Assembly (NCBI RefSeq): GCF_039533965.1
Contig: NZ_BAAAUN010000001.1
Span: 3,012,950-3,076,949 of the forward strand
Source: Microbacterium luteolum
GTDB lineage: Bacteria > Actinomycetota > Actinomycetes > Actinomycetales > Microbacteriaceae
DNA: 64,000 nt
Reading direction: 5' to 3'
The first letter of the stretch is position 1; every line of letters begins with the position of its first letter. Under the pieces are notes generated by a model that saw nothing but the letters and a program-made list of their open reading frames with translations, did no database searches and was not told the origin of the DNA. This document shows positions 28,483 through 62,104 of this stretch, piece by piece. The position numbers and the translations under genes were made by a program.

Positions 28483-29381
28483 CTCGCTATGCCCTGGCCG
28501 TCGATGTGGGCGGCACGAAGATGGAGGCCGCGCTCGTCGGCGAAGACGGCGCGCTCGTCGCGGGCAGCCGCAGCAGGCAGGCGACCGGCCGTCAGGCGAC
28601 CTTCGAGTCGCTGACCGCCGCCGTGCAGGCGATCGTCGCTCACGCGCTCGCCGCCCTGCCCGACGGTGCCGAGGTCGTCGGCGCCGGAGCGGGAAGCGCC
28701 GGACCCATCGACCGTGTCGCAGGCGCGATCATGCCCGTGAACATGCCTCTGGCGCGGGGTTTCGGCCTGGCCGCGGCAGTGCGCGAGGCGGCGTCCGCCG
28801 GCGTGGGGCGCGAGGTGCCGACCGTGCTCGGGCACGACGGCGGAGCCCTCGCGCTCGCCGAATCGTGGCTCGGTGCCACGCAGGATGCCGGTGCGTCCCT
28901 GTCGATCGTCGTGTCGACGGGTGTCGGCGGCGGGTTTGTCGTGAACGGCGCCTACATCCCCGGTGCCACCGGCAATGCCGGCCATCTGGGCCAGGTGCGC
29001 CGCGAGGGCGGGCTGACGCTCGAGGAGATCGCCTCCGGCCCCGCGAGCGCGGCCTGGGCGCAGCAGCAGGGCTGGAACGGCGCGACCGGCGAGGATCTCG
29101 CCCGGGATGCTGCAGCGGGCGTCGCCGTCGCGCGCGCTGCGATCGAGCGCTCGGCGAAGGCCGTCGGCGAGGCGCTGGCGGATGCCGCGACCCTCGTCGA
29201 CCTCGACACGGTCGCCATCGGCGGGGGGTTCTCCCGCGTCTCCGACGACTACATCGACCTCGTGCAGCAGGCGCTCACCGCGAGCGCCGCCCACGAGTAC
29301 TCCCGTCGTGCGCGCGTCGTGCGCTCCGGTCTGGGCGATGAAGGTCCGCTGATCGGCGCTGCGGCCCTCGTGCTGCGCTAG
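28479..29381 (+). CDS. ROK-family sugar kinase, lacking the usual zinc-cysteine motif
   Basis: 300-residue ATP-dependent hexose kinase-fold protein. ATP phosphate loop ALAVDVGGTKMEAALV is at the N-terminus, the catalytic-base region LGHDGGALALAESWLGAT in the middle, then STGVGGGFVVNG. The ROK zinc site, normally GHxxxxxxGxxCxCGxxGCxE, reads GHLGQVRREGGLTLEEIASG: His kept, cysteines lost. Such variants occur in N-acetylmannosamine or glucokinase-like branches, and catalysis may remain. GTG start overlaps the pyrE stop by four bases. Substrate not assigned. Confidence 0.85.
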   Translation: MTRYALAVDVGGTKMEAALVGEDGALVAGSRSRQATGRQATFESLTAAVQAIVAHALAALPDGAEVVGAGAGSAGPIDRVAGAIMPVNMPLARGFGLAAAVREAASAGVGREVPTVLGHDGGALALAESWLGATQDAGASLSIVVSTGVGGGFVVNGAYIPGATGNAGHLGQVRREGGLTLEEIASGPASAAWAQQQGWNGATGEDLARDAAAGVAVARAAIERSAKAVGEALADAATLVDLDTVAIGGGFSRVSDDYIDLVQQALTASAAHEYSRRARVVRSGLGDEGPLIGAAALVLR

Positions 29382-29795: not shown

Positions 29796-30941
29796 TCAGT
29801 TCGTCGTGGAGGTCCTCTGCCGCGCCCGTGCCGCGATCAGCACGAGCACCGGCACGACGGCGCACAGCGCGGCCGAGACGATCAGCGTCGTGCTCGATGC
29901 CGGGTCGCGGCCGATCAGCAGCACGAGGCTCGGGACGAACGTGCCGCCCACGGCTCCGCACGCCACCAGGGTGCCCGTCACGGCGGCGCTGCGCGCGGCG
30001 TCGAGACGGTCGAGTGCGAGTCCGAGGATGAGGCCGTAGCTCGGAGCCAGGAGGACCACGGATGCCGCGAGGGCGACGAGTGCGCCCGCGGGCGCATCGT
30101 TCACCAGCAGCCCCGCGGCAGTCATCAGACAGGCGGCGCCGATCGTACCGACGGCGAGGATCGCGCTCGGCGACACCGCGCGGCGTCGGAGCCCGGCGGC
30201 CCCGAACCGGCCGACGGCCATCAGCGCCCAGAAGGCGGAGGTCCCGAGGGCTGCGGCGGCAGGGTCGAGGGTGAGTGCTCGCGCCGGGATGACCGCCGAC
30301 CATCCGGACAGCACGGTCTCGACGCCGACGTACAGCGGTAGGGCGATCGCGAACGGCAGAAGCGGGAGCAGCGCCCGCACCTCGCGTCGCGCAGGCGCAT
30401 CGGACGCGGATGCCGACGGCTCGTGCCCTCCCGCGAGCAGGGCGATGGTTCCGAGGGGGACGACGGCGAGGATGCTGAGCACCGGCATCGCCGCAGCTCC
30501 GGCGGCCACGGCGAGCGGCGTGAGCGCGGCGCAGACGGCCACGGTGCCCATGAGCGCGCTGAGCAGCCCGGTCGCGCTGCCGGTCGCCGCGGCCTTGGCG
30601 GCGACGGAGCCCGCGGCCTCGACGAGCCCGAACCCGAGTCCTGCCAGCGCGGCTGCGGCGATGAAGAGTGCAGGGTCGCCCGCCCATGCGGCGGCGACGA
30701 GCGCGACCGCCTGGAGCGCGCTGCCGAGGATCAGCGTCACTCGCGCGGGACGCCGCACGAGCAGCGGTCCGGAGAGCAGCACGCCGACGAGGAGCCCGGC
30801 GAACAGCGCCGGCACGGCTGCGCTGAGCTCGGCCGACAGCATCCGCTCCGCCGACGGCAGCACCGCGGGGATGAACGCCGCGGTCACGCCGAGGCTCGCG
30901 AAGGCGGCGAAGAGCCCTGTGCGGTTGCGGCTGCTCGTCAC
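29796..30941 (-). CDS. MFS transporter co-transcribed with MurR-like regulator
   Basis: 381-residue permease with about 11-12 hydrophobic helices. Its N-terminal half includes LFAGLLVGVLLSGPLLVRRP, with the helix 2-3 loop in shortened form, and its C-terminal half has FAIALPLYVGVETVLSGWSA. It resembles sugar/fucose-type or FsrC-like MFS proteins rather than drug pumps, but substrate assignment is not safe. GTG start overlaps the regulator stop by four bases, so it is expressed with the MurR-like protein and probably handles a metabolite of the muropeptide pathway, such as a released amino sugar (inference). Confidence 0.85.
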   Translation of the reverse strand: MTSSRNRTGLFAAFASLGVTAAFIPAVLPSAERMLSAELSAAVPALFAGLLVGVLLSGPLLVRRPARVTLILGSALQAVALVAAAWAGDPALFIAAAALAGLGFGLVEAAGSVAAKAAATGSATGLLSALMGTVAVCAALTPLAVAAGAAAMPVLSILAVVPLGTIALLAGGHEPSASASDAPARREVRALLPLLPFAIALPLYVGVETVLSGWSAVIPARALTLDPAAAALGTSAFWALMAVGRFGAAGLRRRAVSPSAILAVGTIGAACLMTAAGLLVNDAPAGALVALAASVVLLAPSYGLILGLALDRLDAARSAAVTGTLVACGAVGGTFVPSLVLLIGRDPASSTTLIVSAALCAVVPVLVLIAARARQRTSTTN

Positions 30942-31840
30942 GCGCCGCCCGCTCTGACGCGGTGCACGGCGGCGTAGGTGTCGCGCAGCGCCTCCATCGA
31001 GCGGTCGTAGTTCGACTGGGCGACGCCGATGAAGATGCAGTCGACGACCATGAGCTGGGCGATCCGGCTGCCGAGAGCCCCCGAGCGGAACCCGGTCTCC
31101 CTGGCTGCCGTGGTGAGCACGATGTCGGCCTGGTCGGCGAGCGGAGCTCCGGCGTGGTTGGTGATCGCGATCGTGGTGGCTCCCGCGCGGCGGGCCAGCA
31201 GGAGGAACTCGATCGTGTCGGTCGTCGCGCCGCTGTGCGAGACCGCGATGGCGACGTTGCCGGGTCCGAGGGTGGCCGCGGACGTCCACGCGGCATGCGG
31301 ATCGGACCAGTCCAGGGCGGTCCGGCCGATGCGGGTGAGCTTGCGCTGCAGGTCGAGCCCGACGATCGAGCTCGCGCCGACGCCGAAGATGTCGACCCTC
31401 GACGTGGAGTTGATCGCGTCGACGGTCGCGCGCAGCGCGTCGGTGTCGAGCACCTTGGCGGTGTCGGCCAGCGACAGGGTCTCGGCGAGCGACACCTTCG
31501 CGACGATGTCGGCGAGGGTGTCGTTGCGGTCGATGTCGCCGGAGACGTCGGGGAGGGCCGCGGTGTCGAAGGTCTCGCGCTCCACGTCGCGCAGGACGTG
31601 GTTGCGCAGCTCGCGCACGTGGTCGTAGCCGAGCCGCTTGCAGAATCGCACGACGGAGGTGGTCGAGGTGTCGCACCGCTGCGCCAGTTCGGCGATGGAC
31701 AGCCCTGCCGTCTCGGCGGGGCTCGCGAGGAAGAGATCGGCGATCCGCTGCTCGCTGGGGCGCAGCTCGGGGCGGATCGCGCGCATGCGCACGAGAACAG
31801 GGTGCCCGCCGGCGTCGTCGAGGGCGGCGTGATGGGGCAT
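30938..31840 (-). CDS. RpiR/MurR-family regulator with SIS domain
   Basis: 300 residues: an N-terminal RpiR helix-turn-helix (about residues 15-90; LRPSEQRIADLFLASPAETA, RCDTSTTSVVRFCKRLGYDH) and a C-terminal SIS sugar-phosphate-binding domain (about 130-270; VDIFGVGASSIVGLDLQRKL, AIAVSHSGATTDTIEF). MurR in E. coli and Bacillus senses MurNAc-6-phosphate. Divergence from an operon containing murQ and anmK makes this the likely muropeptide-responsive repressor. Start MPHHAALDD has GGAGA upstream; the longer frame is rejected. It leads a two-gene transcript with the MFS gene. Confidence 0.9.
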   Translation of the reverse strand: MPHHAALDDAGGHPVLVRMRAIRPELRPSEQRIADLFLASPAETAGLSIAELAQRCDTSTTSVVRFCKRLGYDHVRELRNHVLRDVERETFDTAALPDVSGDIDRNDTLADIVAKVSLAETLSLADTAKVLDTDALRATVDAINSTSRVDIFGVGASSIVGLDLQRKLTRIGRTALDWSDPHAAWTSAATLGPGNVAIAVSHSGATTDTIEFLLLARRAGATTIAITNHAGAPLADQADIVLTTAARETGFRSGALGSRIAQLMVVDCIFIGVAQSNYDRSMEALRDTYAAVHRVRAGGA

Positions 31841-31876
31841 GGAGGTCTCCGATCGATGTTTCATAACACTAGAGGA

Positions 31877-31896
31877 ACTTCTGTTACATAAGAAGT
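31877..31896. promoter_or_regulatory. Dyad over the -35 region of the muropeptide operon promoter
   Basis: ACTTCT-N8-AGAAGT, perfect six-base arms covering the -35 element of the rightward promoter and lying in the divergent murR intergenic region; candidate MurR operator. Confidence 0.5.
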
Positions 31897-31912
31897 GAGT
31901 TTCGTGTACTTT
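31884..31912 (+). promoter_or_regulatory. Promoter of the muropeptide ABC/recycling operon
   Basis: -35-like TTACAT (31884-31889), 17-base spacer, -10 TACTTT (31907-31912). Transcription would start near 31919, giving a leader of about 90 bases before the ABC binding-protein gene. Confidence 0.5.
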
Positions 31913-31924
31913 TGGTACCACCAA
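31912..31924. promoter_or_regulatory. Second dyad at the operon transcription start
   Basis: TTGGT-ACC-ACCAA, perfect five-base arms overlapping the predicted start point; second candidate regulator site. Confidence 0.4.
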
Positions 31925-32008
31925 GACCGACGATGTTCGCGGGCGAGCAGGCGCAAGCGCCTCCCCGACGCCACGGCGACGCGTCCCAGCCAGCAGGAGG
32001 AATCAGCA

Positions 32009-33556
32009 ATGAGCACAGCACGGCGGGCGTCACTGGGCGCTCTCACCGCGACGGGCGCCATCTTGGCCCTCGTCATGACCGGGTGCTCCGCCCCGGCATC
32101 CGATCCGTCCCCCTCGGAGGGCACCGCAGGCGGCGATCTCGTCATCGGCGTCACCAGCGACCCCGACACCCTGTTCCCCTGGAAGGCCACGCAGTTCCAG
32201 GCCGTCAACGTCCTGCAGAACCTCTACGGCACCCTCACCGAGTTCGACGAGGAGCTCAACGTCGTCCCCGGGCTGGCCGAGTCCTGGGACGTCTCGGAGG
32301 ACGGGCTCACCGTCACCCTCAAGCTGCGCGAGGGCGTGACCTTCGCGGATGGCAGCACGTTCGGATCCGAGGACGTCAAGTACTCGCTCGACGCGATCGC
32401 CCTCGAGGCCACCGCCGCCGTCGCACGCAGCTCGCTCGCGTCGGTCACGGCCGTCGAGGCGACCGACGAGTCGACCGTGACGCTCACGCTGAGCGCCCCC
32501 GACGCCGCGCTTCCCGCCAACCTCGCCGTGATCAACATGGCGATGCTCTCCTCGGACGACACCGAGGAGGCGCTGAACACCACGCCGAACGGCACCGGAC
32601 CCTTCGTCCTCGAGGACCGTTCGCCGAGCCAGTCGCTCACGCTCGCGAAGAACGACGACTACTGGGGCGACACCGCGCTGCTCGACACGGTCGAGTTCCG
32701 CGTCATCCCCGACGAGTCCTCGATCGTCTCGGCGATGCAGTCCGGCAACGTCCAGCTCGCCGTGTTCGACGACCCGCTGGTCGCCCAGACCGCCGAGGGC
32801 GCGAACGTCGAGGTCGCGACCACCCCGCAGCTCAGCTACCACGCCCTGCAGCTGAACGCGACGCGCGGCGACCTCGCCGACGTCAACGTGCGTCTCGCCA
32901 TCCAGTGCGCGATCGACCGTCAGGAAGTCCTCGACACCGCCGCCCTCGGCGAGGGAGAGGTCACGGGGCCGATCACGTCGCCGGCGTACAAGTCCGACCC
33001 CGACGCGCGCCCCTGCCCGGAGCGCGACCTCGACAAGGCGGCCGAGTACCTGAAGAAGGCGGGCAAGGAGGACGGCGTCACGATCAACGCGATCGTCTCG
33101 CAGGGCGAGTACGCCACCTCGGTGAACGAGGCCCAGAACCTCAAGGCCCAGCTCGCCGACGCCGACATCACCCTCGAGATCGAGGTGCTCGAGTCCGGTG
33201 CGTTCGTCGACCGCTGGATCGCCGCGGACTTCGATGCCGCGGTCGCCCTCAACGGCGGACGCCCCGACCCCGACGGCATGTACGGCCGGTACTTCACCAG
33301 CACCGGAAACCTGAACAAGGTCGCCGGGTACTCCTCGCCCGAGCTCGACGCGCTGTTCGCCGAGGGCCGTCAGACGGCGGATGCCGATGAGCGCAAGGAC
33401 ATCTACGCGCAGGTCTCCGAGAACCTCGAGGACAACGCCGCGTGGATCTGGCTGTTCACCAGCTACACCTACACCGCGACGGCGTCGTCCGTCGACGGTT
33501 TCGTTCCGATGGTGAACGGCTCGCTCCAGTACCTGCGGACGACCTCCATCAAGTAG
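32009..33556 (+). CDS. ABC transporter substrate-binding lipoprotein, oligopeptide (family 5) type, muropeptide candidate
   Basis: 515-residue extracytoplasmic receptor. Signal peptide ASLGALTATGAILALVMTGC ends with a lipobox and lipid-attachment Cys about residue 26. The mature domain is SBP family 5: LYGTLTEFDEELNVVPGLAE, SWDVSEDGLTVTLKLREGVT, TPNGTGPFVLE, VRLAIQCAIDRQEVL. These proteins bind di- to oligopeptides or related compounds; MppA of E. coli, a family member, binds murein tripeptide. GGAGG is well placed before the ATG. First gene of a nine-gene operon with both permeases next and the ATPase last, so a muropeptide ligand is inferred from context. Confidence 0.9.
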   Translation: MSTARRASLGALTATGAILALVMTGCSAPASDPSPSEGTAGGDLVIGVTSDPDTLFPWKATQFQAVNVLQNLYGTLTEFDEELNVVPGLAESWDVSEDGLTVTLKLREGVTFADGSTFGSEDVKYSLDAIALEATAAVARSSLASVTAVEATDESTVTLTLSAPDAALPANLAVINMAMLSSDDTEEALNTTPNGTGPFVLEDRSPSQSLTLAKNDDYWGDTALLDTVEFRVIPDESSIVSAMQSGNVQLAVFDDPLVAQTAEGANVEVATTPQLSYHALQLNATRGDLADVNVRLAIQCAIDRQEVLDTAALGEGEVTGPITSPAYKSDPDARPCPERDLDKAAEYLKKAGKEDGVTINAIVSQGEYATSVNEAQNLKAQLADADITLEIEVLESGAFVDRWIAADFDAAVALNGGRPDPDGMYGRYFTSTGNLNKVAGYSSPELDALFAEGRQTADADERKDIYAQVSENLEDNAAWIWLFTSYTYTATASSVDGFVPMVNGSLQYLRTTSIK

Positions 33557-33629
33557 CGGACGGATGCGGCGCCGGTGCACGACCGGCCGGCGCCGCCTCC
33601 TCCCCGACGACAGGCAGCCTCACACTCGC

Positions 33630-34601
33630 ATGTTCAGACAGATCCTCCGCAACACCGTGCTGCGCCGCATCCTCGCAGCCCTCGGCACGCTCCTCGGCGT
33701 GGCCGTCTTCGTCTTCCTGATGCTGCGCGCCATCCCCGGCGACCAGATCAGCTCGGGCCTCGGCACCGAGGCAGCCGCCCTCACACCCGCGCAGCGCGCC
33801 GCTCTCGAGGCCTACTACGGTCTCGACCAGCCGCTGTTCGTGCAGTTCTTCTCGTGGCTCGGCAACATCTTCACCGGCAACCTCGGCTTCTCCTCGCGCG
33901 CGCAGACCAGCGTGCTCGACCTCACCCTCGCCGCCCTGCCGGTGACCTTCGAGCTCGCGATCTTCTCGATCGTGATCGCCCTCGCCATCGGCATCCCGCT
34001 CGGCATGCTCTCCGCCTCGAAGCCCGACTCGGTCCGCGACGGCTTCGGCCAGGTCGTCGGGCTCGCCGGGCTCTCGATCCCCGCGTTCCTGCTCGGCACC
34101 GCGCTGCTCGCGATCCTGGCCTCCTCGTTCGGGTTCAACCCCAACGGTCAGGGCTTCGCCACGCTCTTCCAGGACCCGCTGCTGAACCTCCAGCAGATGC
34201 TGCTCCCGTCGATCGTCCTCGGCTTCGGCATCGCCGCCCCGATCATGCGGACCACGCGCACCGCCGTGCTGGAGATCCGCGCCAACGACTTCATCCGCAC
34301 CGCGCGCGCGAAGGGCGTGCCACCGCGTCGCCTGCAGATCCGGCACGTGCTGCGCAACGCGCTCGTGCCGATCGTCACCATGACGGGCCTGCAGTTCGGC
34401 TACCTCCTCGGCGGTGCGGTCGTGGTGGAGCAGATCTTCTCGCTCCCCGGCATCGGCCGCCAGGTGCTCCTCGGCATCCAGCAGAAGGAGTACGCGCTCG
34501 TGCAGAGCACCGTGCTGGTGATCGCGCTCGCGTTCGTCATCGTCAACCTGCTCACCGACCTGCTGTACCGGGTCATCGATCCTCGGGTGCGTGCCGCATG
34601 A
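33630..34601 (+). CDS. ABC transporter permease, DppB-like
   Basis: 323-residue inner-membrane permease with about six helices. The N-terminal TLLGVAVFVFLMLRAIPGDQ is typical of DppB/OppB, and the EAA cytoplasmic loop is NDFIRTARAKGVPPRRLQIRHVL. The end VEQIFSLPGIGRQVLLGIQQ is also diagnostic. The ATG chosen gives MFRQILRNTV; the upstream 22-residue extension is proline/arginine-rich and intergenic. It forms a heterodimeric channel with the next permease and overlaps it by four bases. Confidence 0.92.
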   Translation: MFRQILRNTVLRRILAALGTLLGVAVFVFLMLRAIPGDQISSGLGTEAAALTPAQRAALEAYYGLDQPLFVQFFSWLGNIFTGNLGFSSRAQTSVLDLTLAALPVTFELAIFSIVIALAIGIPLGMLSASKPDSVRDGFGQVVGLAGLSIPAFLLGTALLAILASSFGFNPNGQGFATLFQDPLLNLQQMLLPSIVLGFGIAAPIMRTTRTAVLEIRANDFIRTARAKGVPPRRLQIRHVLRNALVPIVTMTGLQFGYLLGGAVVVEQIFSLPGIGRQVLLGIQQKEYALVQSTVLVIALAFVIVNLLTDLLYRVIDPRVRAA

Positions 34602-35485
34602 CCGACATCTCTCAGACCCCTGCTCTCGCCCCCGGCGGCGGACGCACGATGGAGCGCGTGCGGCTGCTGCTGCGCAGCAGGAGCGGTCTCACCGGACTCG
34701 TCATCGTCGTCCTCCTCGGTGTGCTCAGCATCGTCTCGGCGTTCGGGCTGCTGCCGTTCGATCCACTCGCTCAGGACCCGCCGTCGCGCCTGCAGCCGCC
34801 GTCGGGTGCGCACTGGTTCGGCACCGACCAGTTCGGCCGCGATGTGTTCTCCCGCGTGGCCGCCGGCGTCGCGAACTCCGCCCTGATCTCGCTCGTCGCC
34901 GTCGCCTTCGCCACGGTCGTCGGCACGGTGTGCGGTCTGATCGCCGGCTTCTACCGCGGCTTCTCCGACGGCGCGATCACGGCGGTCACGAACGTGCTCT
35001 TCGCGTTCCCGCCGCTGCTGCTCGCCCTCTCGCTGGCCTCGGTCTTCGAGCGCAACTGGTTCACTATCGCCGTGGCCATCGCGATCGTCTACGTGCCGAT
35101 CTTCATCCGGGTGACCCGCGGTCCTGTGCTGTCGCTCCGCGAGGTCGAGTACGTCAAGGCCGCGAAGAGCACCGGGCAGAGCCGCATGGCGACCATGTTC
35201 CGCCATGTGCTGCCCAACATCACGTCGATCATCATCGTGCAGGTGACGCTCTCGCTGTCGTGGGCCGTGCTCACCGAGGCGTCGCTGAGCTTCCTCGGCC
35301 TGGGGACGCCGCCGCCGGCGCCGTCGCTCGGATCGATGATCTTCGAGGCGCGCACGCTCGTGACCATCGCCCCCTGGACGATGATCGCCCCCGGTGTGAT
35401 CGTGGTCCTGCTCGTGGTGGGCCTGAACCTGCTCGGCGACGGACTGCGCGACAGTCTCGACCCGCGGAACAGGGGCAAGCGATGA
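34598..35485 (+). CDS. ABC transporter permease, DppC-like
   Basis: 295-residue second permease subunit. DppC/OppC marks: an N-terminal helix then HWFGTDQFGRDVFSRVAAGV and the EAA loop REVEYVKAAKSTGQSRMATM-FRHVLPN. Also ASLSFLGLGTPPPAPSLGSM and NLLGDGLRDSLDPRNRG at the C-terminus. Starts inside the stop of the DppB-like gene (ATGA) and ends inside the start of murQ (ATGA), so transport and catabolism are translationally coupled. Confidence 0.93.
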   Translation: MTDISQTPALAPGGGRTMERVRLLLRSRSGLTGLVIVVLLGVLSIVSAFGLLPFDPLAQDPPSRLQPPSGAHWFGTDQFGRDVFSRVAAGVANSALISLVAVAFATVVGTVCGLIAGFYRGFSDGAITAVTNVLFAFPPLLLALSLASVFERNWFTIAVAIAIVYVPIFIRVTRGPVLSLREVEYVKAAKSTGQSRMATMFRHVLPNITSIIIVQVTLSLSWAVLTEASLSFLGLGTPPPAPSLGSMIFEARTLVTIAPWTMIAPGVIVVLLVVGLNLLGDGLRDSLDPRNRGKR

Positions 35486-36387
35486 CGATGGAGGATCTCG
35501 GCGGACTCGCCACCGAGGCGAGCGACCCGCGCTATGCGGAACTCGACCTGATGAGCGTCGCCCAGCTCGCGCAGACGATGAACGACGCGGATGCCACGGT
35601 GCCCGGTGCCGTGCAGCGGGCGCTCCCGCAGATCGTCCCGGCCATCGAGGCGACCTCCGAGCGCATGGCTCGCGGCGGGCGGCTCGTCTACGTCGGCGCG
35701 GGGACGCCGGGACGCATCGGGGTCGTCGACGCCTCGGAGTGCCCGCCGACGTTCAGCACTCCGCCGGAGCTCGTCTTCGCGATCATGGCCGGCGGCCCCG
35801 GAGCGATCGTGAATCCGGTCGAGGGCGCTGAGGACGACGCCGACGCGGGCAGCGCCGCGATCGACGAGGCGGGCATCGGCCCGCTCGACACCGTGATCGG
35901 CATCGCCTCCAGCGGACGCACGCCCTACGTCGTGGCCGCGATCCGGCGTGCGCGGGAGCGCGGCGCACTGACCGTCGGGCTGTCCTGCAACACGGGCACC
36001 GTGCTCAGCGCGGCCGCGGAGCACGGCATCGAGGTCGAGGTCGGCCCCGAGGTGCTCTCCGGCTCGACGCGCCTCAAGTCGGGCACCGCGCAGAAGCTGG
36101 TGCTCAACATGTTCTCGACCATCGTCATGGTGCGAGGCGGCAAGGCCTACGGCAACCTGATGGTCGACCTGAAGGCGACCAACCACAAGCTCCGCGAGCG
36201 CGCCACCCGTATGGTGCAGTCGATCGCCGCCGTCGATCGGGAAGCCGCGATCGGCGCCCTCGAGACGGCGGGCTACGACGTGAAGATCGCGTCGATCATG
36301 CTCCGCCGCGGCGAGGACCTCACCGAGGCCACCGCACGGATCACCGCCGCCGACGGCCGGCTGCGGACAGCACTGGAGGAGAACTGA
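35482..36387 (+). CDS. murQ: N-acetylmuramic acid 6-phosphate etherase
   Basis: 301-residue SIS-fold lyase cleaving the D-lactyl ether of MurNAc-6-phosphate to GlcNAc-6-phosphate and D-lactate. N-terminal TEASDPRYAELDLMSVAQLA corresponds to the TE-N-ID signature. Then come VYVGAGTPGRIGVVDASECP, the SIS core IGIASSGRTPYVVAAIRRAR and GPEVLSGSTRLKSGTAQKLV, followed by KAYGNLMVDLKATNHKLRER, diagnostic of MurQ, and a C-terminal UBA-like helical segment. Placed directly after the permease genes (ATGA overlap) and one base before anmK, it marks the operon as muropeptide recycling. Confidence 0.93.
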   Translation: MTMEDLGGLATEASDPRYAELDLMSVAQLAQTMNDADATVPGAVQRALPQIVPAIEATSERMARGGRLVYVGAGTPGRIGVVDASECPPTFSTPPELVFAIMAGGPGAIVNPVEGAEDDADAGSAAIDEAGIGPLDTVIGIASSGRTPYVVAAIRRARERGALTVGLSCNTGTVLSAAAEHGIEVEVGPEVLSGSTRLKSGTAQKLVLNMFSTIVMVRGGKAYGNLMVDLKATNHKLRERATRMVQSIAAVDREAAIGALETAGYDVKIASIMLRRGEDLTEATARITAADGRLRTALEEN

Positions 36388-37577
36388 TGCGCGTCCTGGG
36401 ACTCATCTCCGGCACCTCGCACGACGGGATCGATGCGGCCGTCGTGGATTTCACGGCGAACGACGCCCCCTCGGCATCCGGTGTCGCTCTGCGGGGGACC
36501 GTCCTCGCCTCGACGAGCGTGCCGTACGCCGCCGAGCTCCGCGCCAGGCTGATCGCCGCGCTCCCGCCCGCGCAGACCACGCTCGCCGAGGTCGCCGAGC
36601 TCGACACGCTCATCGGGCAGGCGTTCGCCGAGGTCGCCGCCGACATCTCCGCCGAGGTCGGCGGCGTCGACGCGATCTGCTCGCACGGGCAGACCGTCTA
36701 CCACTGGGTCGACGGCGCGCACGCGCTCGGAACGCTGCAGATCGGGCAGCCCGCCTGGATCGCCGAGCGCGTCGGAGCCCCGGTCGTCTCCGACATCCGC
36801 ATCCGCGACATCACGGCGGGCGGGCACGGCGCACCCCTGGTCTCGTTCCTCGACGAGCTGCTGCTGCGCACGCACGCCGGGGTCTCGGCGGCCCTGAACC
36901 TGGGCGGCATCTCGAACATGACGGTGGTGCGACCCGACGGCCTCGTCGCGTACGACATCGGCCCGGCGAACGCGCTCGTCGACGCGGTCATCGTGGAGCA
37001 TGGTCTCAACCCGCTCGGGTACGACGACGACGCCCGGATCGCGCGCACGGGGCACGTCGACGACGCGCTGCTCGCGGCGCTGCTCGCCGACCCGTACTAC
37101 GCGCTGACCCCGCCGAAGAGCACGGGCAAGGAGCACTTCCACCTCGGCTACGTGCACGAGCACCTCGCGGCGCAGGGGCGCGAGATCCCGGTCGAAGACG
37201 TCGTGCGCACGCTCACCGAGCTCACGGTGCAGACCGTCGCGCGCGATGTGGCGACGGCCGGCATCGAGTTCCTCGCGGTGTCGGGAGGCGGATGCCGCAA
37301 TCCGCTGATCCTCGACGGACTGCGCGCAGCCCTGCCGGGCACGCGGGTCGTCCTCGCCGATGAGCTCGGCGCCCCGGCGGACAGCAAGGAGGCGATCCTC
37401 CTCGCGCTGATCGGCTGGTGCACGATGCACGGCGTCTCGGCCATCGTCCCCGGCGGCACCGGGGCGCGGGAACCGCGCATCCTCGGCACGATCACCCCGG
37501 GTGCCGGTCCGCTCGTGATGCCGCAGCCCGTGTCCGGCATCGACTCTCTCACGCTCGCGGAGGCCGCGGCATCGTGA
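36387..37577 (+). CDS. anmK: Anhydro-N-acetylmuramic acid kinase
   Basis: 396-residue kinase that hydrolyses and phosphorylates 1,6-anhydroMurNAc to MurNAc-6-phosphate, the MurQ substrate. Visible: VLGLISGTSHDGIDAAVVDF (ATP P-loop with catalytic-region Asp; family GTSxDGID), CSHGQTVYHW, LQIGQPAWIAERVGAPVVSD, AALNLGGISNMTVV, YDIGPANALVDAV and SGGGCRNPLI. The ATG shares its A with the murQ stop (TGATG). Its presence implies the cell uses anhydro-muropeptides, products of lytic transglycosylases, possibly from other bacteria. Confidence 0.94.
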   Translation: MRVLGLISGTSHDGIDAAVVDFTANDAPSASGVALRGTVLASTSVPYAAELRARLIAALPPAQTTLAEVAELDTLIGQAFAEVAADISAEVGGVDAICSHGQTVYHWVDGAHALGTLQIGQPAWIAERVGAPVVSDIRIRDITAGGHGAPLVSFLDELLLRTHAGVSAALNLGGISNMTVVRPDGLVAYDIGPANALVDAVIVEHGLNPLGYDDDARIARTGHVDDALLAALLADPYYALTPPKSTGKEHFHLGYVHEHLAAQGREIPVEDVVRTLTELTVQTVARDVATAGIEFLAVSGGGCRNPLILDGLRAALPGTRVVLADELGAPADSKEAILLALIGWCTMHGVSAIVPGGTGAREPRILGTITPGAGPLVMPQPVSGIDSLTLAEAAAS

Positions 37578-38062
37578 ACGTCGAGGTGCGCCCTGCGACC
37601 CCGGACGACCTGTCCGGGGTGCTCGGCGTGTTTCTGGGATGCTGGCGGGAGAGCTACCGCGGCATCCTGCCCGCATCCGCGATCGACGCGATGACCGATG
37701 AGCGCGCTGAGGCCCTGTGGCGACGTGTGCTGGCCGACCCGGTCGGCGAGTTGCTGGTCGCCGAGCGCGACGGCGAGGTCGTCGGCCTCACCCGCTACGC
37801 CGTGAGCGACGGCGAGGGGGCGGTGCACTCCCTGTACGTCTCGCCGCGCACGCACGGCGGCGGGGTCGGCACGGCGCTGCTGTCGACGGCCGCCGAGGCC
37901 CTCCGCGCGGCGGGGGCGGATGCCGCCACGCTCTGGGTCTTCGCTGCCAACGCGCCCTCCATCGGCTTCTACGAGTCCCGCGGCTGGCAGGCCGACGGAG
38001 CGACCCGCACCCAGCCCGACTTCGGCGAACCGGAGCAGCGGATGCGCAGGGAGTGGGCATGA
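37574..38062 (+). CDS. GNAT-family N-acetyltransferase in the muropeptide operon
   Basis: 162-residue acetyl-CoA-dependent acetyltransferase. Motif A is VHSLYVSPRTHGGGVGTALL (about residues 87-106), the pyrophosphate-binding Q/RxxGxG/A variant HGGGVG, followed by AAGADAATLWVFAANAPSIG and FYESRGW, the motif B end. GTG start overlaps the anmK stop. A possible job is acetylating an amino group of imported peptides, amino sugars or amino acids, protecting or inactivating them; inferred only from operon membership. Confidence 0.85.
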   Translation: MNVEVRPATPDDLSGVLGVFLGCWRESYRGILPASAIDAMTDERAEALWRRVLADPVGELLVAERDGEVVGLTRYAVSDGEGAVHSLYVSPRTHGGGVGTALLSTAAEALRAAGADAATLWVFAANAPSIGFYESRGWQADGATRTQPDFGEPEQRMRREWA

Positions 38063-39213
38063 GCGTCGTGGAGCGGATGCGCGTGCTGCGGGTGTCGTCG
38101 CCGCTGGTGCGACCCTTCGTCACGGCGGTGCGCCGCACGGATCGCCTCGACGTGGTGCTCGTCGAGGCCACCGATGCGGATGGCCGCGTCGGCTGGGGCG
38201 AGGCGGCGGTGAGCTGGCGTGTCACGGGGGAGAGCCCGCAGAGCGTCGCCGCCGCGGTGACCGGACCGCTCGGTGCCGCGGTCGCCGGGAGGCGAGCCGG
38301 CGACCCTGCGCTGGCCGGCGTCATCGCCGCGTCGATCTGGGGGAATGCGGCCGCTCGCAGCGGGGTCGCGTGCGCGGTGGCGGATCTCGCCGCGCGACAG
38401 CGGGGGCTGTCCGTCGCGGAGGCGCTTCTGGGGAACGGCGCGACGGCGCCGTCGCGCCTCCGCACGGACATGACGCTGTCGACCGCGCCTCCGCCGGAGT
38501 TGGCGGAACAGGCGATCGCGCACGTCGCGGCCGGATTCGGCTGCCTCAAGATCAAGGCCTCCGCCGCGCACGACACGGTCGCGGGTCTCCGGGCCGTGCG
38601 CGCCGCCGTCGGCCCGGCGATCACGCTTCGTATCGATGCGAACCAGGCCTGGGACCCGGAGACCGCGATCCGGGTGATCCGCGCCCTCGAGGACGAGGGG
38701 CTCGACATCGAGCTGGTCGAGCAGCCCGTCGCGGCATCCGACCTCGAAGGGCTGGCGACGGTCACGGCGGCCGTCGGCACCCCGATCATGGCCGACGAGG
38801 CCGTGCGCACCGAACGCGACGTCCGGGCGATCGCGGACCGCGGCGCCGCCGACCTCGTGAACATCAAGCTGGCGAAGACCGGCGGTCCGACCGAGGCCGT
38901 CGCGGCGGCCCGTGCCGCGCAGGAAGCCGGGCTCGGCATCGTGTTCGGCTGCATGATGGAGTCTCCGGTCGGGGTCACCGCCACCGCGCATCTCGCGGCG
39001 GTCCTGGCTCCCGACGAGGTGCACGATCTGGACGCGGCGCTCTGGCTCCGGCGGTCGCCCGTGATCGGCGGCATCCGCTCCGAGGGTGACGTGCTCGAGC
39101 TCGGCGCCGGCCTCGGATTCGGCATCGATGCGCTCGCGCCCGACGTCGAAGCCGAGGTGCTCGCGGACATCCGGCCCGCGCACAGCCGGATCCATGAGGA
39201 GGTGCGCGCATGA
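38059..39213 (+). CDS. Dipeptide epimerase, enolase superfamily (L-Ala-D/L-Glu epimerase type)
   Basis: 384-residue enzyme of the muconate-lactonising subgroup. The catalytic KxK is K164-I-K166, the other acid/base K270 (VNIKLAKTGG), and the Mg2+ ligands Asp193 (RIDANQAW), Glu221 (ELVEQP) and Asp246 (IMADEAV). A CMMESP motif follows. This residue pattern fits dipeptide epimerases such as YcjG, which convert L-Ala-D-Glu from murein to L-Ala-L-Glu so that peptidases can use it. ATGA overlaps on both sides. Specificity is inferred from context. Confidence 0.88.
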   Translation: MSVVERMRVLRVSSPLVRPFVTAVRRTDRLDVVLVEATDADGRVGWGEAAVSWRVTGESPQSVAAAVTGPLGAAVAGRRAGDPALAGVIAASIWGNAAARSGVACAVADLAARQRGLSVAEALLGNGATAPSRLRTDMTLSTAPPPELAEQAIAHVAAGFGCLKIKASAAHDTVAGLRAVRAAVGPAITLRIDANQAWDPETAIRVIRALEDEGLDIELVEQPVAASDLEGLATVTAAVGTPIMADEAVRTERDVRAIADRGAADLVNIKLAKTGGPTEAVAAARAAQEAGLGIVFGCMMESPVGVTATAHLAAVLAPDEVHDLDAALWLRRSPVIGGIRSEGDVLELGAGLGFGIDALAPDVEAEVLADIRPAHSRIHEEVRA

Positions 39214-40319
39214 GCGCCGTGCAGGCTGTCGAGGCCGTGTTGGCAGGGTCTTCCGCTCCGGCGGGCGTCGTGGTCGGCATCGCTTCGCCGTCCGGGCGCG
39301 ACGTGGCCGCCGGCGGTCACGCCGACGTCGCGGGAGCGCCGATGACGGGGGATACCGCGTTCGACATCGCCTCCGTGACCAAGGTTGCCGCGACCACGAC
39401 GGCCGTGCTCGCCCTGGTCGGCCGTGGCGACCTCCGCTTCGACGACCTCGTCTCGCGCTTCCTTCCCGGCACCGCATGCGCGCCGCCGACGACGCTCCGC
39501 CACCTGCTGCAGCATCGCGCCGGTCTCTGGGAATGGCAGCCGCTGTATCTGGACCCGCGCGACCCGGTCACCGCCATGGACGCCATGCCCCTGCGCTACG
39601 CACTCGACGAGGGGCGCCAGTACTCCGATCTCGGCTTCCTGCTGCTCGGCCGCATCGTCGCCGCCGTCACGGGCATGCCGCTGGACGCCGCGGTCCGCGA
39701 CCTCGTGACCACGCCGCTCGGACTCGACCGCACGGGCTTCGGGCCCGTGGCGACCCCGGTCGCATCGACCGCGGTCGGCGATATCGCGGAGCGCCGCATG
39801 GTGGCCACGGGCGAGCCCTATCCGATCCTCACCTCCCGACGTCACTTCGCCTGGCGCGAGGAGGAGATCGCCGGGGCGGCGAACGACGGCAACTGCTTCC
39901 ATGCGTTCGGCGGGATCGCCGGGCACGCCGGACTGTTCAGCACCGCCGACGACCTGCTCACGCTCGGCACGGCGCTCGCCGCTCCCGCGCAGCACGCCGA
40001 TCTGTGGAATCCGGATGCCGTCGCCGAGCTGTTCCGCGACGGACCCGACTCCGGCCAGGCGCTCGGCTGGCGCAGCGACACGGTCCGGGTCGACGGTCAC
40101 GAACAGCGGATGCTGTGGCACCCCGGCTTCACCGGCTGTGCCCTCGGCATCATCCCCGGCGCCGGCATGGCCGTCGTGATGCTCGGCAACCGCCTCCTCG
40201 CCACCGAACCGGCCACGACCGAGACCCTGTGGCGATCGGTCCTCCCCGCACTCCTGGGCGACCAGACATCCCGTGACACCGCGACTTCCCGTGAAACCGA
40301 AGGAACGAGAACACCATGA
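39210..40319 (+). CDS. Beta-lactamase-fold serine hydrolase, AmiE (YbbE)-like
   Basis: 369-residue class C-like serine hydrolase. The SxxK motif is Ser55-V-T-Lys58 in DIASVTKVAA, Tyr138 in RQYSDLGFLLLGRI is the YxN-equivalent, and HAGLFSTADDLLTLG follows. No signal peptide, so it acts in the cytoplasm. In Bacillus subtilis the murQ-murR-murP operon encodes YbbE/AmiE of this fold, reported as an N-acetylmuramyl-L-alanine amidase. An equivalent here could split imported MurNAc-peptides into sugar for AnmK/MurQ and peptide for the epimerase. Unlike the secreted Bacillus enzyme, the location fits ABC uptake of intact muropeptides. Esterase or peptidase activity is the alternative. Confidence 0.82.
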   Translation: MSAVQAVEAVLAGSSAPAGVVVGIASPSGRDVAAGGHADVAGAPMTGDTAFDIASVTKVAATTTAVLALVGRGDLRFDDLVSRFLPGTACAPPTTLRHLLQHRAGLWEWQPLYLDPRDPVTAMDAMPLRYALDEGRQYSDLGFLLLGRIVAAVTGMPLDAAVRDLVTTPLGLDRTGFGPVATPVASTAVGDIAERRMVATGEPYPILTSRRHFAWREEEIAGAANDGNCFHAFGGIAGHAGLFSTADDLLTLGTALAAPAQHADLWNPDAVAELFRDGPDSGQALGWRSDTVRVDGHEQRMLWHPGFTGCALGIIPGAGMAVVMLGNRLLATEPATTETLWRSVLPALLGDQTSRDTATSRETEGTRTP

Positions 40320-41947
40320 GCATCACCGAGCCCGTGCTGAGCATCAAGGGCCTGGCGGTCGCCTTCCGGACCGGCTCCGAGCTGGTCACCGCGATCAGCG
40401 ACGTCAACATCGACGTCGCCGCGGGAGAGACGGTCGCCGTGGTCGGCGAGTCCGGATCCGGGAAGTCCACGACGGCTGCGGCCGTCAACCGGCTCCTCCC
40501 GGACAACGGAGTGATCACCGCCGGCAGCATCCGCTTCGACGGGCGCGAGCTCACCGAGCTCGGCGAGAACGCGATGATCTCGCTGCGCGGCGCGGGGATC
40601 GGCCTCGTCCCGCAGGACCCGATGTCCAACCTCGACCCGCTCATGCGGGTCGGCGACCAGATCGGCGAGGCGCTCGAGGTGCACGGCCGCACGTCGGGCG
40701 ACGCCACGACGGCCCGGGTCGTCGAGCTGCTCGAGATGGTGGGGATCGCGGATGCCGCGAACCGCGCGCGCCAGTACCCGCACGAGTTCTCCGGCGGCAT
40801 GCGCCAGCGGGTGCTGATCGCCATGGGGCTCGCCTGCACGCCGCGGCTGCTCATCGCCGACGAGCCGACCTCCGCTCTCGACGTCACCGTGCAGCGCCGC
40901 ATCCTCGACCAGCTCGACGAGCTGACCGACGAGCTCGGCACCGCGGTGTTCCTCATCACGCACGACCTGGCGCTCGCCGCCGAGCGCGCCGACCGCATCG
41001 TCGTGATGTTCCGCGGCAAGATCGTCGAAGAGGGCACCTCGGCCGAGGTGCTCGGAAACCCGCAGCACGAGTACACCCGGCAGCTGCTCGCGGCCGCGCC
41101 CAGCCTCGCGTCCCGTCGTGACCCGTTGCCGCAGCGCGAGTCCGTCGCGTCGGAGACGCCGTTCGTCGAGGTACGGGACCTCCGTAAAGAGTTCGCGCTG
41201 CGCTCGCCGAAGCCGGGCGAGGCGCAGAGCTTCACCGCCGTCGACGGCGTGAGCTTCTCGATCCGTCGCGGCACGACCGTGTCGATCGTGGGGGAGTCGG
41301 GCTCGGGCAAGTCGACGACCGCCAACATGGTGCTGGGTCTCGAGGACGTCACATCGGGATCCATCCTGTTCGACGGCCTCGATCTGACCGGACTCCGCCG
41401 CAAGGAGCTCTTCGCGTTGCGCCGGAGGGTCCAGCCGGTGTTCCAGAACCCCTACGCCTCGCTCGACCCGCGCTACACGGTCGAGCAGTCGATCGCGGAG
41501 CCCTTGCGGGTGCACCGCATCGGCACCGCGACCACCCGGCACGCCCGCGTCCTGGAGCTCCTGGAGCAGGTCGCTCTTCCCGCGGCCATGGCCGAGCGCC
41601 TGCCGCACGAGCTCTCGGGTGGGCAGCGGCAGCGCGTGGCCATCGCCAGGGCGCTCGCCCTCGAGCCGGAGCTCGTGGTCCTCGACGAAGCGGTGTCGGC
41701 CCTCGACGTGCTGGTGCAGGCGCAGATCCTCGACCTGCTCGCCGACCTTCAGCGACGTCTCGGGCTCAGCTACCTGTTCATCAGCCATGACCTCGCGGTC
41801 GTGCGGATGATCTCCGACGAGGTGCACGTCATGCAGCGGGGCGTCGTCGTGGAGAGCGGAACTCCGGAGCGCATCTTCGACGATCCGCAGCATCCGTACA
41901 CGAAGGAGCTGTTGGCGGCGATCCCGGGGGCCTCGCTGGCGTCCTGA
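40316..41947 (+). CDS. Fused double ATP-binding subunit of the oligopeptide-type ABC importer (DppD-DppF)
   Basis: 543 residues with two complete ABC domains. The first Walker A is at 44-51 (GESGSGKS), with signature FSGGMRQRVL and Walker B LLIADEPTSALDVT. The second Walker A is at 325-333, with signature LSGGQRQRVAIARALA and Walker B VVLDEAVSALDVL. Each half has the oligopeptide-family phrases QDPMSNLDP or QNPYASLDPRYTV and a short C-terminal extension. GsiA-like fused ATPases power family-5 importers. It closes the operon, overlapping the hydrolase stop by four bases, and supplies the only ATPase for the permeases at 33.6-35.5 kb. Confidence 0.93.
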   Translation: MSITEPVLSIKGLAVAFRTGSELVTAISDVNIDVAAGETVAVVGESGSGKSTTAAAVNRLLPDNGVITAGSIRFDGRELTELGENAMISLRGAGIGLVPQDPMSNLDPLMRVGDQIGEALEVHGRTSGDATTARVVELLEMVGIADAANRARQYPHEFSGGMRQRVLIAMGLACTPRLLIADEPTSALDVTVQRRILDQLDELTDELGTAVFLITHDLALAAERADRIVVMFRGKIVEEGTSAEVLGNPQHEYTRQLLAAAPSLASRRDPLPQRESVASETPFVEVRDLRKEFALRSPKPGEAQSFTAVDGVSFSIRRGTTVSIVGESGSGKSTTANMVLGLEDVTSGSILFDGLDLTGLRRKELFALRRRVQPVFQNPYASLDPRYTVEQSIAEPLRVHRIGTATTRHARVLELLEQVALPAAMAERLPHELSGGQRQRVAIARALALEPELVVLDEAVSALDVLVQAQILDLLADLQRRLGLSYLFISHDLAVVRMISDEVHVMQRGVVVESGTPERIFDDPQHPYTKELLAAIPGASLAS

Positions 41948-61979: not shown

Positions 61980-61985
61980 CCCAAG

Positions 61986-61991
61986 ACGGTA
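61986..61991 (-). promoter_or_regulatory. -10 box of leaderless POT transporter gene
   Basis: TACCGT on the minus strand, six bases before the ATG at 61979, directly adjoining a dispersed repeat. Confidence 0.5.
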
Positions 61992-62015
61992 CCCTTCGAC
62001 GGGCTCAGGGACCCA
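61992..62015 (+). repeat. Dispersed repeat, copy 6
   Basis: CCCTTCGACGGGCTCAGGGA then CCCA, in the gap between the POT promoter and the glyS promoter; untranslated. Confidence 0.85.
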
Positions 62016-62048
62016 GTTCTCGGCCGAGGGACCCCGCATCGTGGCGGA

Positions 62049-62054
62049 TAGAAT
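62049..62054 (+). promoter_or_regulatory. -10 box of glyS
   Basis: TAGAAT; predicted start near 62061, giving a leader of about 45 bases with a small CCCGT-GCTC-ACGGG hairpin and GGAG before the ATG. Unlike many neighbours this gene has a normal leader. Confidence 0.45.
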
Positions 62055-62104
62055 GGAGGTGCCCGTGCTCACGGGTTCTCCCGCTTCCGACCATTGGAGC
62101 CACC

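Follow-up and report, generated by a model that had tools for sequence, protein, structure and literature searches.

Results

The window (the whole 64,000-nucleotide stretch analysed) had been described in a first-pass annotation as holding eleven genes at this locus, a MurR-like regulator and an MFS gene diverging from a run of nine, and all eleven were located by an ORF and profile scan:

29796..30941, minus strand: MFS transporter, optional partner (weak Pfam MFS_1)
30938..31840, minus strand: MurR/RpiR-family regulator (HTH_6 and SIS), divergent from the operon
31906..31913, plus strand: GTACTTTT, candidate operator half-site between the regulator and SBP genes
32009..33556, plus strand: family-5 substrate-binding lipoprotein (SBP; SBP_bac_5)
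33630..34601, plus strand: Dpp/Opp-type permease, DppB-like (BPD_transp_1)
34598..35485, plus strand: Dpp/Opp-type permease, DppC-like (BPD_transp_1)
35482..36387, plus strand: MurQ, MurNAc-6-phosphate etherase (TIGR00274, over cut-off)
36387..37577, plus strand: AnmK, anhydro-MurNAc kinase (PF03702; NF007146, over cut-off)
37574..38062, plus strand: GNAT acetyltransferase, optional (Acetyltransf_1)
38059..39213, plus strand: dipeptide epimerase of the L-Ala-D/L-Glu epimerase type, optional (MR_MLE)
39210..40319, plus strand: serine hydrolase of the PBP4B (YfeW)/AmiE kind, proposed cytoplasmic muramoyl-L-alanine amidase (Beta-lactamase PF00144)
40316..41947, plus strand: fused double ABC ATPase, DppD-DppF-like (two ABC_tran stretches and oligo_HPY)

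The run is ordered SBP5, permease, permease, MurQ, AnmK, GNAT, epimerase, serine hydrolase and fused ATPase, and its junctions are, as had been claimed, mostly four-base overlaps (6/8). The MurQ and AnmK genes overlap by 1 base, and a 73-base gap separates the SBP and permease genes if the permease start listed above is taken; an in-frame ATG also lies further upstream, at position 33564. The MFS and regulator genes also overlap by 4 bases.

The sugar enzymes belong to families whose reactions are established: MurQ scored 341.6 bits against TIGR00274 (cut-off 302), and AnmK scored 349 against PF03702 (cut-off 24) and 516.2 bits against NF007146 (cut-off 440). Neither MurP nor AmpG was found among the operon products with Pfam and NCBIfam profiles, and nothing among the window ORFs scanned with Pfam contradicted the earlier statement that NagZ, AmpD, LdcA and MurK are missing from the window. 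Elsewhere in the same genome lie genes for two GH3 proteins with the NagZ motif (one begins with an apparent signal peptide, the other does not), one S66/LdcA-family gene and a BadF-type kinase gene adjoining a second MurQ gene. Since genes for NagA, NagB and D-lactate-dehydrogenase-like, NagZ-like and LdcA-family proteins sit outside the operon, calling it ‘complete’ was too strong.

The serine hydrolase carries the SxxK, YSD and H-x-G catalytic motifs of PF00144, with S55, K58, Y138, S139, H304 and G306 invariant in 37 aligned sequences. PBP4B was the best NCBIfam model for all four orthologs scanned; the window's hydrolase reached 97.3 bits against the PBP4B/YfeW model NF002968, far below the cut-off of 385, and is 29% identical to YfeW over 317 residues. 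Among the proteins nearest to it in fold are DD-peptidases, esterases and D-amino acid amidases, and PF00144 also contains B. subtilis AmiE, which the cited part of the source describes as a MurNAc-L-Ala amidase acting outside the cell (PMC10653849). The hydrolase of the window showed no recognisable signal peptide by hydrophobicity, by a stricter signal-peptide rule or in its model, which is ordered from residue 1. The catalytic Ser of YfeW is residue 102, whereas in 73 hydrolase sequences it falls within residues 32-80 (median 55), which leaves scant room for a signal peptide. The stricter rule flagged 5/73 hydrolases (L074, L100, L103, L104 and L193; not that of the window) versus 69/71 SBPs, although peak N-terminal hydrophobicity failed to separate the hydrolases from YfeW (several at 1.9-2.1 versus 2.0) and a loose lipobox pattern also matched the hydrolases of L069, L074 and L082. 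The window's hydrolase appears from these sequence features to be cytoplasmic and, as no signal peptide was recognised on it, would differ in location from B. subtilis AmiE.

The SBP_bac_5 protein, the two BPD_transp_1 permeases and the two ABC domains with oligo_HPY identify a Dpp/Opp-type ABC importer. According to the cited part of PMC12136057, the Asp at the DppA D436 site binds the free N-terminal amine of a dipeptide, and dipeptide binding is lost in the R383D+D436R double mutant of DppA. OppA and MppA also have Asp at this site; the window's SBP has Arg, as do 63/71 SBP orthologs in our alignment (Asp, 0/71), so that the amine-binding Asp of dipeptide/oligopeptide importers of the DppA/OppA/MppA type is absent. 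Loss of the Asp is not specific, since GsiB, NikA and YejA also lack it, and in a noisy alignment the genome's other alignable SBP5 proteins had Asp in 5/21 and Arg in 1/21. The uncharged scoop-loop positions of the DppB-like permease are likewise common to NikB. The SBP is closer to GsiB and DppA (27%) than to E. coli YejA, to which it aligned weakly and over only part of its length (24% over 255 residues, E 4e-9), and its structural neighbours include the murein-tripeptide binders MppA (3o9p) and DppE (8ay0) as well as a sialic acid binder (5z99), AgaA (6hlx) and AccA (6i7w). For the fused ATPase the best NCBIfam models were GsiA and YejF, both below cut-off (YejF, 525 bits); two separate ATPase genes occur in L175, L186, L189, L193, L194, L200 and L206. 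The listed SBP relatives bear the record names ‘ABC transporter substrate-binding protein’ and ‘peptide/nickel transport system substrate-binding protein’.

In an alignment with 1jpm, the B. subtilis enzyme, the epimerase retains the KxK motif, three metal ligands, a second Lys and the DxD motif, which we take to be the catalytic residues, and it did not reach curated equivalog cut-offs. The MFS protein fell just below the Pfam MFS_1 cut-off (31.3 versus 33.4) and weakly matched TsgA, not AmpG; its relatives adjoin dehydrogenase or NagB genes in L104, L105, L106, L173 and L202. The regulator is an RpiR-family SIS protein (PF01418 and PF01380 over cut-off) that scored 141.7 bits against the E. 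coli-type MurR equivalog NF012026 (cut-off 408), and it is called MurR-like from context only. Exact copies of GTACTTTT occurred in 35/63 intergenic regions shorter than 400 bases (66 regions were collected) versus 0.2 expected in single-base shuffles, the motif having been picked from the same data and many of the regions coming from near relatives.

Conserved synteny had been put forward as one check on the import-and-recycling reading, which would have fallen had the gene order been confined to this strain. The core is kept in distant relatives: SBP and both permeases are present in 48/80 named AnmK loci, 46 of which have MurQ (not found near AnmK in L076 and L081), 46 the hydrolase, 47 the ATPase, 47 the regulator, 34 the GNAT and 18 the epimerase. 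The core of the nine-gene operon therefore extends beyond the strain, with the epimerase and GNAT reduced to optional parts. In six loci of a low-GC family the gene order differs, but the SBP, permeases, AnmK, hydrolase and two split ATPases are all retained, with MurQ in 5/6 and the epimerase in 5/6. We also surveyed 91 AnmK loci across the class (25 oligopeptide-ABC, 13 sugar-ABC, 16 MHS, 14 SSS and 23 others). The hydrolase lay near AnmK in 22/25 oligopeptide-ABC loci versus 0/13 sugar-ABC, 0/16 MHS and 0/14 SSS loci (0/43 for these other recognised transporters together) and 3/23 others; the epimerase was found in 11/25 oligopeptide-ABC loci versus 0/66 of the rest, and a GH3 NagZ-like gene in 9/13 sugar-ABC, 0/25 oligopeptide-ABC and 3/23 other loci. 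The three oligopeptide-ABC loci in which no hydrolase was found have an MFS gene in its place (L177), an aminotransferase gene after the ATPase genes (L206) or a contig end (L231), and MurQ was not found near AnmK in 2/25 (L175 and L191). Relative to AnmK the regulator gene lies on the opposite strand in 19 of these 25 loci and on the same strand in five, and was not found in one. Also near AnmK in the 25 were NagA (3), NagB (6) and a D-lactate-dehydrogenase-like gene (9), and in L173, of the same genus, the operon runs on into an FAD/Fe-S dehydrogenase (D-lactate-dehydrogenase-like) gene and NagA, with NagB behind the MFS gene. The nearest named relatives belong to Microbacterium. Among 149 genomes of the genus, AnmK is present in each of the 13 that carry the SBP (E <= 1e-100), and none of the 45 with AnmK lacks a MurQ. 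On the AnmK tree the transporter types have few origins (the oligopeptide-ABC label needs four changes for 24 rows); the loci are therefore not independent trials, and the pattern, as read from this tree, is one of deep conservation and not of many independent events.

Discussion

The first-pass annotation had proposed that an oligopeptide-type ABC importer, a cytoplasmic amidase, AnmK and MurQ act together on intact anhydro-muropeptides. Synteny beyond the strain, the matching of transporter and partner enzyme, the missing signal peptide and the changed binding site support this central part of the annotation. We consider the operon's probable role to be the import of intact (anhydro)muropeptides, of which monomeric 1,6-anhydroMurNAc-peptides are the likeliest, for dismantling inside the cell. 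In the order of steps that we infer, anhydro-muropeptides would be released by lytic enzymes of the cell itself or of other bacteria, and GlcNAc could be removed either outside or inside the cell, as only one of the two NagZ-like proteins has an apparent signal peptide. The sugar-peptide, its N-terminus blocked by the muramoyl amide, would be captured by the lipoprotein SBP and imported through the two permeases and the fused ATPase, whereupon the cytoplasmic serine hydrolase would cut the MurNAc-L-Ala (or Gly) amide. AnmK would convert anhydroMurNAc to MurNAc-6-P, MurQ would yield GlcNAc-6-P and D-lactate, and the final steps would fall to NagA, NagB and a D-lactate-dehydrogenase-like enzyme, whose genes lie at other places in the genome. 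Where present, the epimerase would handle the dipeptide after other peptidases, and the MurR-like protein may repress the operon until sugar phosphate appears.

The comparisons incline us, by a little over an even chance, to a broader view in which an importer dedicated to anhydro-muropeptides exists in Actinomycetota. It would be a Dpp-like ABC system in which Arg has taken the place of the amine-binding Asp so that N-blocked sugar-peptides are taken, and it would share one operon with a cytoplasmic AmiE-type amidase. Within the class, transporter and opening enzyme would be exchanged together in AnmK operons: an amidase accompanies the peptide ABC, NagZ the sugar ABC, and neither enzyme the MHS and SSS symporters, so that the partner enzyme tells the cargo. 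The peptide-ABC version would reach small-genome, low-GC actinobacteria.

It is quite conceivable, if somewhat short of an even chance, that the same machinery mainly scavenges foreign peptidoglycan for carbon and nitrogen and does not recycle the cell's own wall. The NagA, NagB and dehydrogenase-like genes near AnmK in some oligopeptide-ABC loci, with all three in L173, point this way, as do the patchy distribution within the genus (13/149 genomes) and the optional epimerase. The walls of many Microbacterium contain Gly at position 1 and N-glycolylmuramate, a composition that an L-Ala-D-Glu epimerase would not suit. Our data do not separate own from foreign fragments, but scavenging concerns use and not mechanism, and is compatible with muropeptide import.

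We think it unlikely that the ABC system imports free murein peptides, as do Opp with MppA and B. subtilis Dpp with ykf, while the sugar enzymes serve a separate anhydroMurNAc supply. The Dpp/Opp/Gsi kind of SBP and permeases, the structural likeness to MppA and DppE and an epimerase that acts on dipeptides would suit such cargo; against this, the amine-holding Asp of DppA/OppA/MppA is present in none of the 71 orthologs, the epimerase is absent from 30/48 named ABC loci, and the amidase and AnmK would have no substrate from the transporter, yet both mostly stay with it. Import of free anhydroMurNAc or MurNAc, with the hydrolase serving as a DD-carboxypeptidase, an esterase or in detoxification, seems less probable still: the sugar alone would suffice for AnmK and MurQ, other AnmK operons have single-gene transporters (MHS, SSS) and no amidase, and the SBP has structural neighbours in the SBP5 family that bind sugar acids and opines, but the restriction of the hydrolase to oligopeptide-ABC loci among the recognised transporter types is what one would expect of a cargo that includes a peptide. 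That an unrelated peptide or nickel nutrient transporter neighbours AnmK and MurQ by chance, as the general names of the SBP relatives might suggest, is highly improbable: the MurQ and AnmK genes sit inside the transporter run, flanked by the permease and ATPase genes and joined by overlapping codons, and the same set persists across deep divergence and where the genes have been reshuffled.

Muropeptide import by this operon would bear on the question of how monoderm actinobacteria move muramic-acid fragments across the membrane. Passages cited from the literature state that uptake in mycobacteria occurs ‘by an unknown transporter’ (a 2026 study, PMC13041923) and that S. coelicolor recycles MurNAc with no MurP ortholog (PMC5061867). 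The operon is a candidate for this missing uptake step in cell-wall recycling; it points to a specific transporter, a proposed amidase and a route for the sugar, all within a single transcription unit of culturable soil-type bacteria. If correct, our reading would provide a case of peptide-ABC muropeptide import beyond Agrobacterium, call for re-annotation of the listed binding proteins now named ‘ABC transporter’ or ‘peptide/nickel transport’, and provide a rule predicting cargo from partner enzyme.

Several known systems share parts of this arrangement. The B. subtilis Dpp system with YkfABC, which imports free murein peptides, likewise joins an oligopeptide-type ABC transporter to an Ala-Glu epimerase; to our knowledge it has no MurQ, AnmK or amidase, unlike the operon described here with MurQ, AnmK and a proposed amidase. 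As annotated, E. coli murR diverges from murQ-murP-yfeW, which resembles our operon in its divergent regulator, murQ and PBP4B-family gene (yfeW) in the same run; E. coli, however, has a PTS transporter, YfeW begins with a signal sequence, and no anmK was found within the 12 kb examined. S. coelicolor SCO4305-4308 is, in the cited part of PMC5061867, likewise an actinobacterial MurR-MurQ cluster without MurP, but two of its genes are of unknown function and no transporter gene is assigned there. The B. subtilis cluster murQ-murR-murP-amiE-nagZ-ybbC, as outlined in the cited parts of PMC5061867 and PMC10653849, similarly groups MurR, MurQ and a PF00144 protein (there a MurNAc-L-Ala amidase); AmiE and NagZ act outside the cell and the sugar enters via the PTS MurP, whereas here the hydrolase appears cytoplasmic and an ABC importer and AnmK are present. 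YejBEF-YepA of Agrobacterium tumefaciens is described in the cited part of PMC9790009 as importing anhydro-muropeptides through a peptide-type ABC transporter that has a dedicated peptidoglycan SBP and works with a cytosolic amidase, AmpD, and with NagZ, YepA being reported there from Alphaproteobacteria only. Peptide-type ABC import of muropeptides is already known, and the operon described here would be a variant of it: its transporter is likewise of the peptide type, and YejF is among the best models, below cut-off, for its ATPase, but, in contrast to the system as described there, the proposed amidase is a PF00144 serine hydrolase and not AmpD, and transporter, proposed amidase, MurQ and AnmK share one operon.

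Results

The operon and its conservation across genera

The first-pass annotation had described a MurR-like regulator gene and an MFS gene diverging from nine genes for muropeptide uptake and recycling, and gene ends, overlaps and family profile matches bore this content out, with all operon genes present in the window. MurQ and AnmK passed curated equivalog cut-offs in the profile search, structure neighbour lists (VIA, Foldseek) showed, among the matches listed, the expected superfamilies, and the nearest named relatives were from Microbacterium. The operon and other genes noted in the window (contig positions 3012950-3076949 of a 4.14 Mb genome) are:

28434-29381, ROK-family kinase gene, upstream of the operon and flanked by a phosphoribosyltransferase gene and the MFS gene
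29796-41947, the operon, with the MurR-like and MFS genes divergent from the binding protein (SBP), two permeases, MurQ, AnmK, GNAT, epimerase, hydrolase and ATPase genes
55555-56496, gene for a protein of the Beta-lactamase2 family (PF13354)
60510-62072, gene for a POT-family peptide transporter, roughly 18 kb away from the operon

The same annotation had read the operon genes as one unit, and a synteny search beyond the strain agreed, since the operon core is kept across genera and matched sets are retained among the 91 class loci described below. Window proteins were compared by tblastn with 80 named AnmK loci, and a gene was counted at ≥38% identity and ≥60 bits. The SBP and both permeases were found in 48 of the 80, a fraction that is not a frequency in nature, as these loci are the nearest AnmK relatives by choice. 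The 48 loci with ABC genes contained MurQ (46), the hydrolase (46), the ATPase (47), the regulator (47), GNAT (34) and the epimerase (18, hence missing from 30), and span Microbacterium, Agromyces, Mycetocola, Propionibacteriaceae, Nonomuraea, Sphaerisporangium, Cellulomonas, Psychromicrobium, a Bifidobacteriaceae MAG, an Anaerolinea MAG (L097, rearranged) and others. A hydrolase was not counted in two of them: L084, where the contig stops after AnmK, and L097, where a 30% match lies on the opposite strand. Among the 32 loci without ABC genes, L030, L077 and L086 are truncated by contig ends and have other operon genes; L033 (Microbacterium) retains only MurR, MurQ and AnmK, a search there for the SBP, permeases, hydrolase and ATPase finding none; and tblastn detected neither MurQ nor the hydrolase in the remaining 28. 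A chance neighbourhood of transporter and AnmK/MurQ was rejected in view of this conservation in named and class loci. Relatives of the ROK kinase occur near AnmK in many Microbacterium loci, including 25 of the 32 that lack the ABC genes in the named set, and are often found near the solitary AnmK genes of other Microbacterium; the gene lies outside the core conserved beyond Microbacterium.

Two gene sets count for more than the rest as evidence. A locus of the same genus (L173) reads SBP-permease-permease-MurQ-AnmK-epimerase-hydrolase-ATPase, followed almost without gaps by an FAD/Fe-S dehydrogenase of 940 residues and GlcD/D-2-hydroxyacid type and then NagA, with NagB on the opposite side behind the MFS gene. 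This NagB passed NF001684 (390 vs 326 bits), NagA fell slightly below its cut-off (205 vs 226 bits) and the dehydrogenase far under those of its best models (GlcD, 195 vs 568 bits). The MurQ reaction releases D-lactate, which we infer to be the dehydrogenase substrate. In six loci of one family (44–50% GC, genomes of 1.3–2.2 Mb), the SBP, permeases, AnmK and hydrolase occur together with two separate ATPases in an order that differs from the window, with MurQ in five, the epimerase in five and a GNAT-like gene on the opposite strand in all six.

Recycling genes across the genus and elsewhere in the genome

Among 149 genomes of the genus, the SBP was found in 13, AnmK in 45 and MurQ in 72; AnmK accompanies the SBP in every one of the 13, and none of the 45 AnmK genomes lacks MurQ, although the MurQ of many of these 45 is of a second type, with about 50% identity to the window MurQ. 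Solitary AnmK genes in other Microbacterium were therefore dismissed as a contradiction. The second MurQ of the window's genome (L267) adjoins a BadF-type kinase and a MurR-like gene, and selected ORFs searched for a transporter near it gave unrelated or no families; this locus is plausibly a route for free MurNAc. Genes for the handling of GlcNAc and peptide are found elsewhere in the genome, outside the operon: one S66 peptidase, NagA, NagB, a D-lactate-dehydrogenase-like gene and two GH3 proteins that carry the NagZ motif, one with an apparent N-terminal signal peptide and one without. A search for Rpf enzymes as a source of anhydro ends gave zero PF06737 matches in the genome.

Transporter types and partner enzymes at AnmK loci of the class

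Among 394 genomes of the class 73 contained AnmK, and among 199 of the family 20 did, the two sets having two genomes in common; all 91 distinct loci were read around AnmK, a sample less biased than the 80 named nearest relatives. Transporter and enzyme family names were set by scanning example proteins against Pfam and NCBIfam, with other members assigned by BLAST similarity to these examples.

Genes near AnmK in 91 loci, by transporter type
Oligopeptide ABC (25 loci): hydrolase (AmiE/YfeW-like) 22, GH3 NagZ-like 0, epimerase 11, MurQ 23
Sugar-type (CUT1-like) ABC (13 loci; L112-L116, L197, L215, L217-L220, L230, and L102, whose weak sugar-ABC matches, 27–32%, are probably unrelated): hydrolase 0, GH3 9 (9/12 without L102), epimerase 0, MurQ 11
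MHS-type MFS (metabolite/H+ symporter family) (16 loci; L108, L109, L110, L228, L229, L159, L160, L161, L163, L164, L166-L171): hydrolase 0, GH3 0, epimerase 0, MurQ 6
Sodium:solute symporter (14 loci; L111, L157, L172, L176, L178, L184, L185, L192, L196, L199, L203, L210, L213, L223): hydrolase 0, GH3 0, epimerase 0, MurQ 2
Other (23 loci): hydrolase 3, GH3 3, epimerase 0, MurQ 5

Fisher tests gave 7e-15 for the hydrolase, 9e-8 for the epimerase and 2e-7 for GH3 with the sugar ABC, values that overstate the case because an AnmK tree (89 of the 91 rows, leaving out the short AnmK pieces of L221 and L223) requires so few label changes: four suffice for the oligopeptide-ABC label, and 12 when all five labels are scored. 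With so few changes, the matched sets are deeply retained and were lost a few times, instead of having been gained independently on many occasions.

The other transporter types carry partners of their own. In the sugar-ABC loci, the N-terminus of the GH3 protein is not signal-peptide-like and a BadF kinase occurs in most of the nine, and this ABC system is a candidate importer of GlcNAc-anhydroMurNAc. The MHS-type transporter is a candidate anhydroMurNAc symporter; no amidase or NagZ was found near AnmK in its 16 loci, where NagB occurs in five. Two symporter loci, L111 and L199, also have a BadF-type kinase, MurQ, NagA and NagB. At L201, L204 and L205, MurQ adjoins a more distantly related Dpp-type ABC, a few kb away from AnmK, which may be another uptake variant; L205 additionally has a GHL10-family glycoside hydrolase.

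The binding protein and the hydrolase

The N-terminus of the SBP marks it as a lipoprotein. The SBP model (pLDDT 89) matched, among the matches listed, DppA, AapF, AgaA and many further family-5 proteins. In E. coli DppA, D436 and R383 hold the amino and carboxyl ends of the dipeptide (PMC12136057). Across 71 SBP orthologs the D436 site was Arg in 63, Ser in three, Gln in two, Lys in two, Asn in one and Asp in none, with identical counts in two further alignments; the R383 site was Gln in 63, in a region where the alignment is less certain. Loss of the Asp argues against free peptides as the ligand. The Asp is present in E. coli OppA and MppA and absent from GsiB, NikA and YejA, and among the 21 other SBP5 proteins of the genome aligned there, five have Asp and one Arg, so the change at this site is by itself insufficient to indicate a muropeptide. 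The charged pair of the DppB scoop loop is missing from the operon's permease family; covariation with the SBP site was set aside as carrying little weight, since NikB also lacks the pair.

The hydrolase belongs to PF00144 and has SxxK, YSD and H-x-G motifs; B. subtilis AmiE is another member of PF00144 (PMC10653849). PBP4B was the best NCBIfam model, below cut-off, for all four orthologs scanned, and PBP4B (yfeW) is part of the E. coli murQ run. The start of the window hydrolase gene overlaps the epimerase gene by 4 bases, and its predicted structure is ordered from the first residue. A simple signal-peptide rule flagged 69 of 71 SBPs, YfeW and five of 73 hydrolases, the window hydrolase being unflagged; by peak hydrophobicity alone, hydrolases and YfeW could not be told apart. 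In the 73 hydrolases the catalytic Ser is found between residues 32 and 80 (median 55), in YfeW at residue 102. The window hydrolase is apparently cytoplasmic, and we infer it to be an amidase; an amidase for muropeptides in the cytoplasm would be of use only if muropeptides entered the cell intact.

Epimerase, GNAT and operator

The epimerase aligned over 352 residues with the L-Ala-D/L-Glu epimerase of B. subtilis, and the catalytic residues matched. No more than 9 kb from AnmK, a GNAT family member is present at 13 of 25 oligopeptide-ABC loci vs two of 66 others; the nearest GNAT profiles and structures indicated no substrate, and our guess is that it restores the acetyl group of de-N-acetylated amino sugars ahead of the MurQ step. 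An inverted-repeat search of the intergenic regions for an operator gave no single palindrome common to all; a candidate half-site (GTACTTTT), picked after inspection of the data, was counted over 63 of 66 intergenic regions.

Comparison with known systems

A literature search covering titles and abstract openings, with most subscription journals outside its scope, recognised no earlier description of the operon. YejBEF-YepA is a precedent for muropeptide import via a peptide-type ABC system (PMC9790009). Unlike YejBEF-YepA, the genes here form a single operon, the SBP appears to belong to another branch, the phylum is different and a PF00144 enzyme, apparently cytoplasmic, stands in place of AmpD, and it is in these respects that the present system seems to be new.
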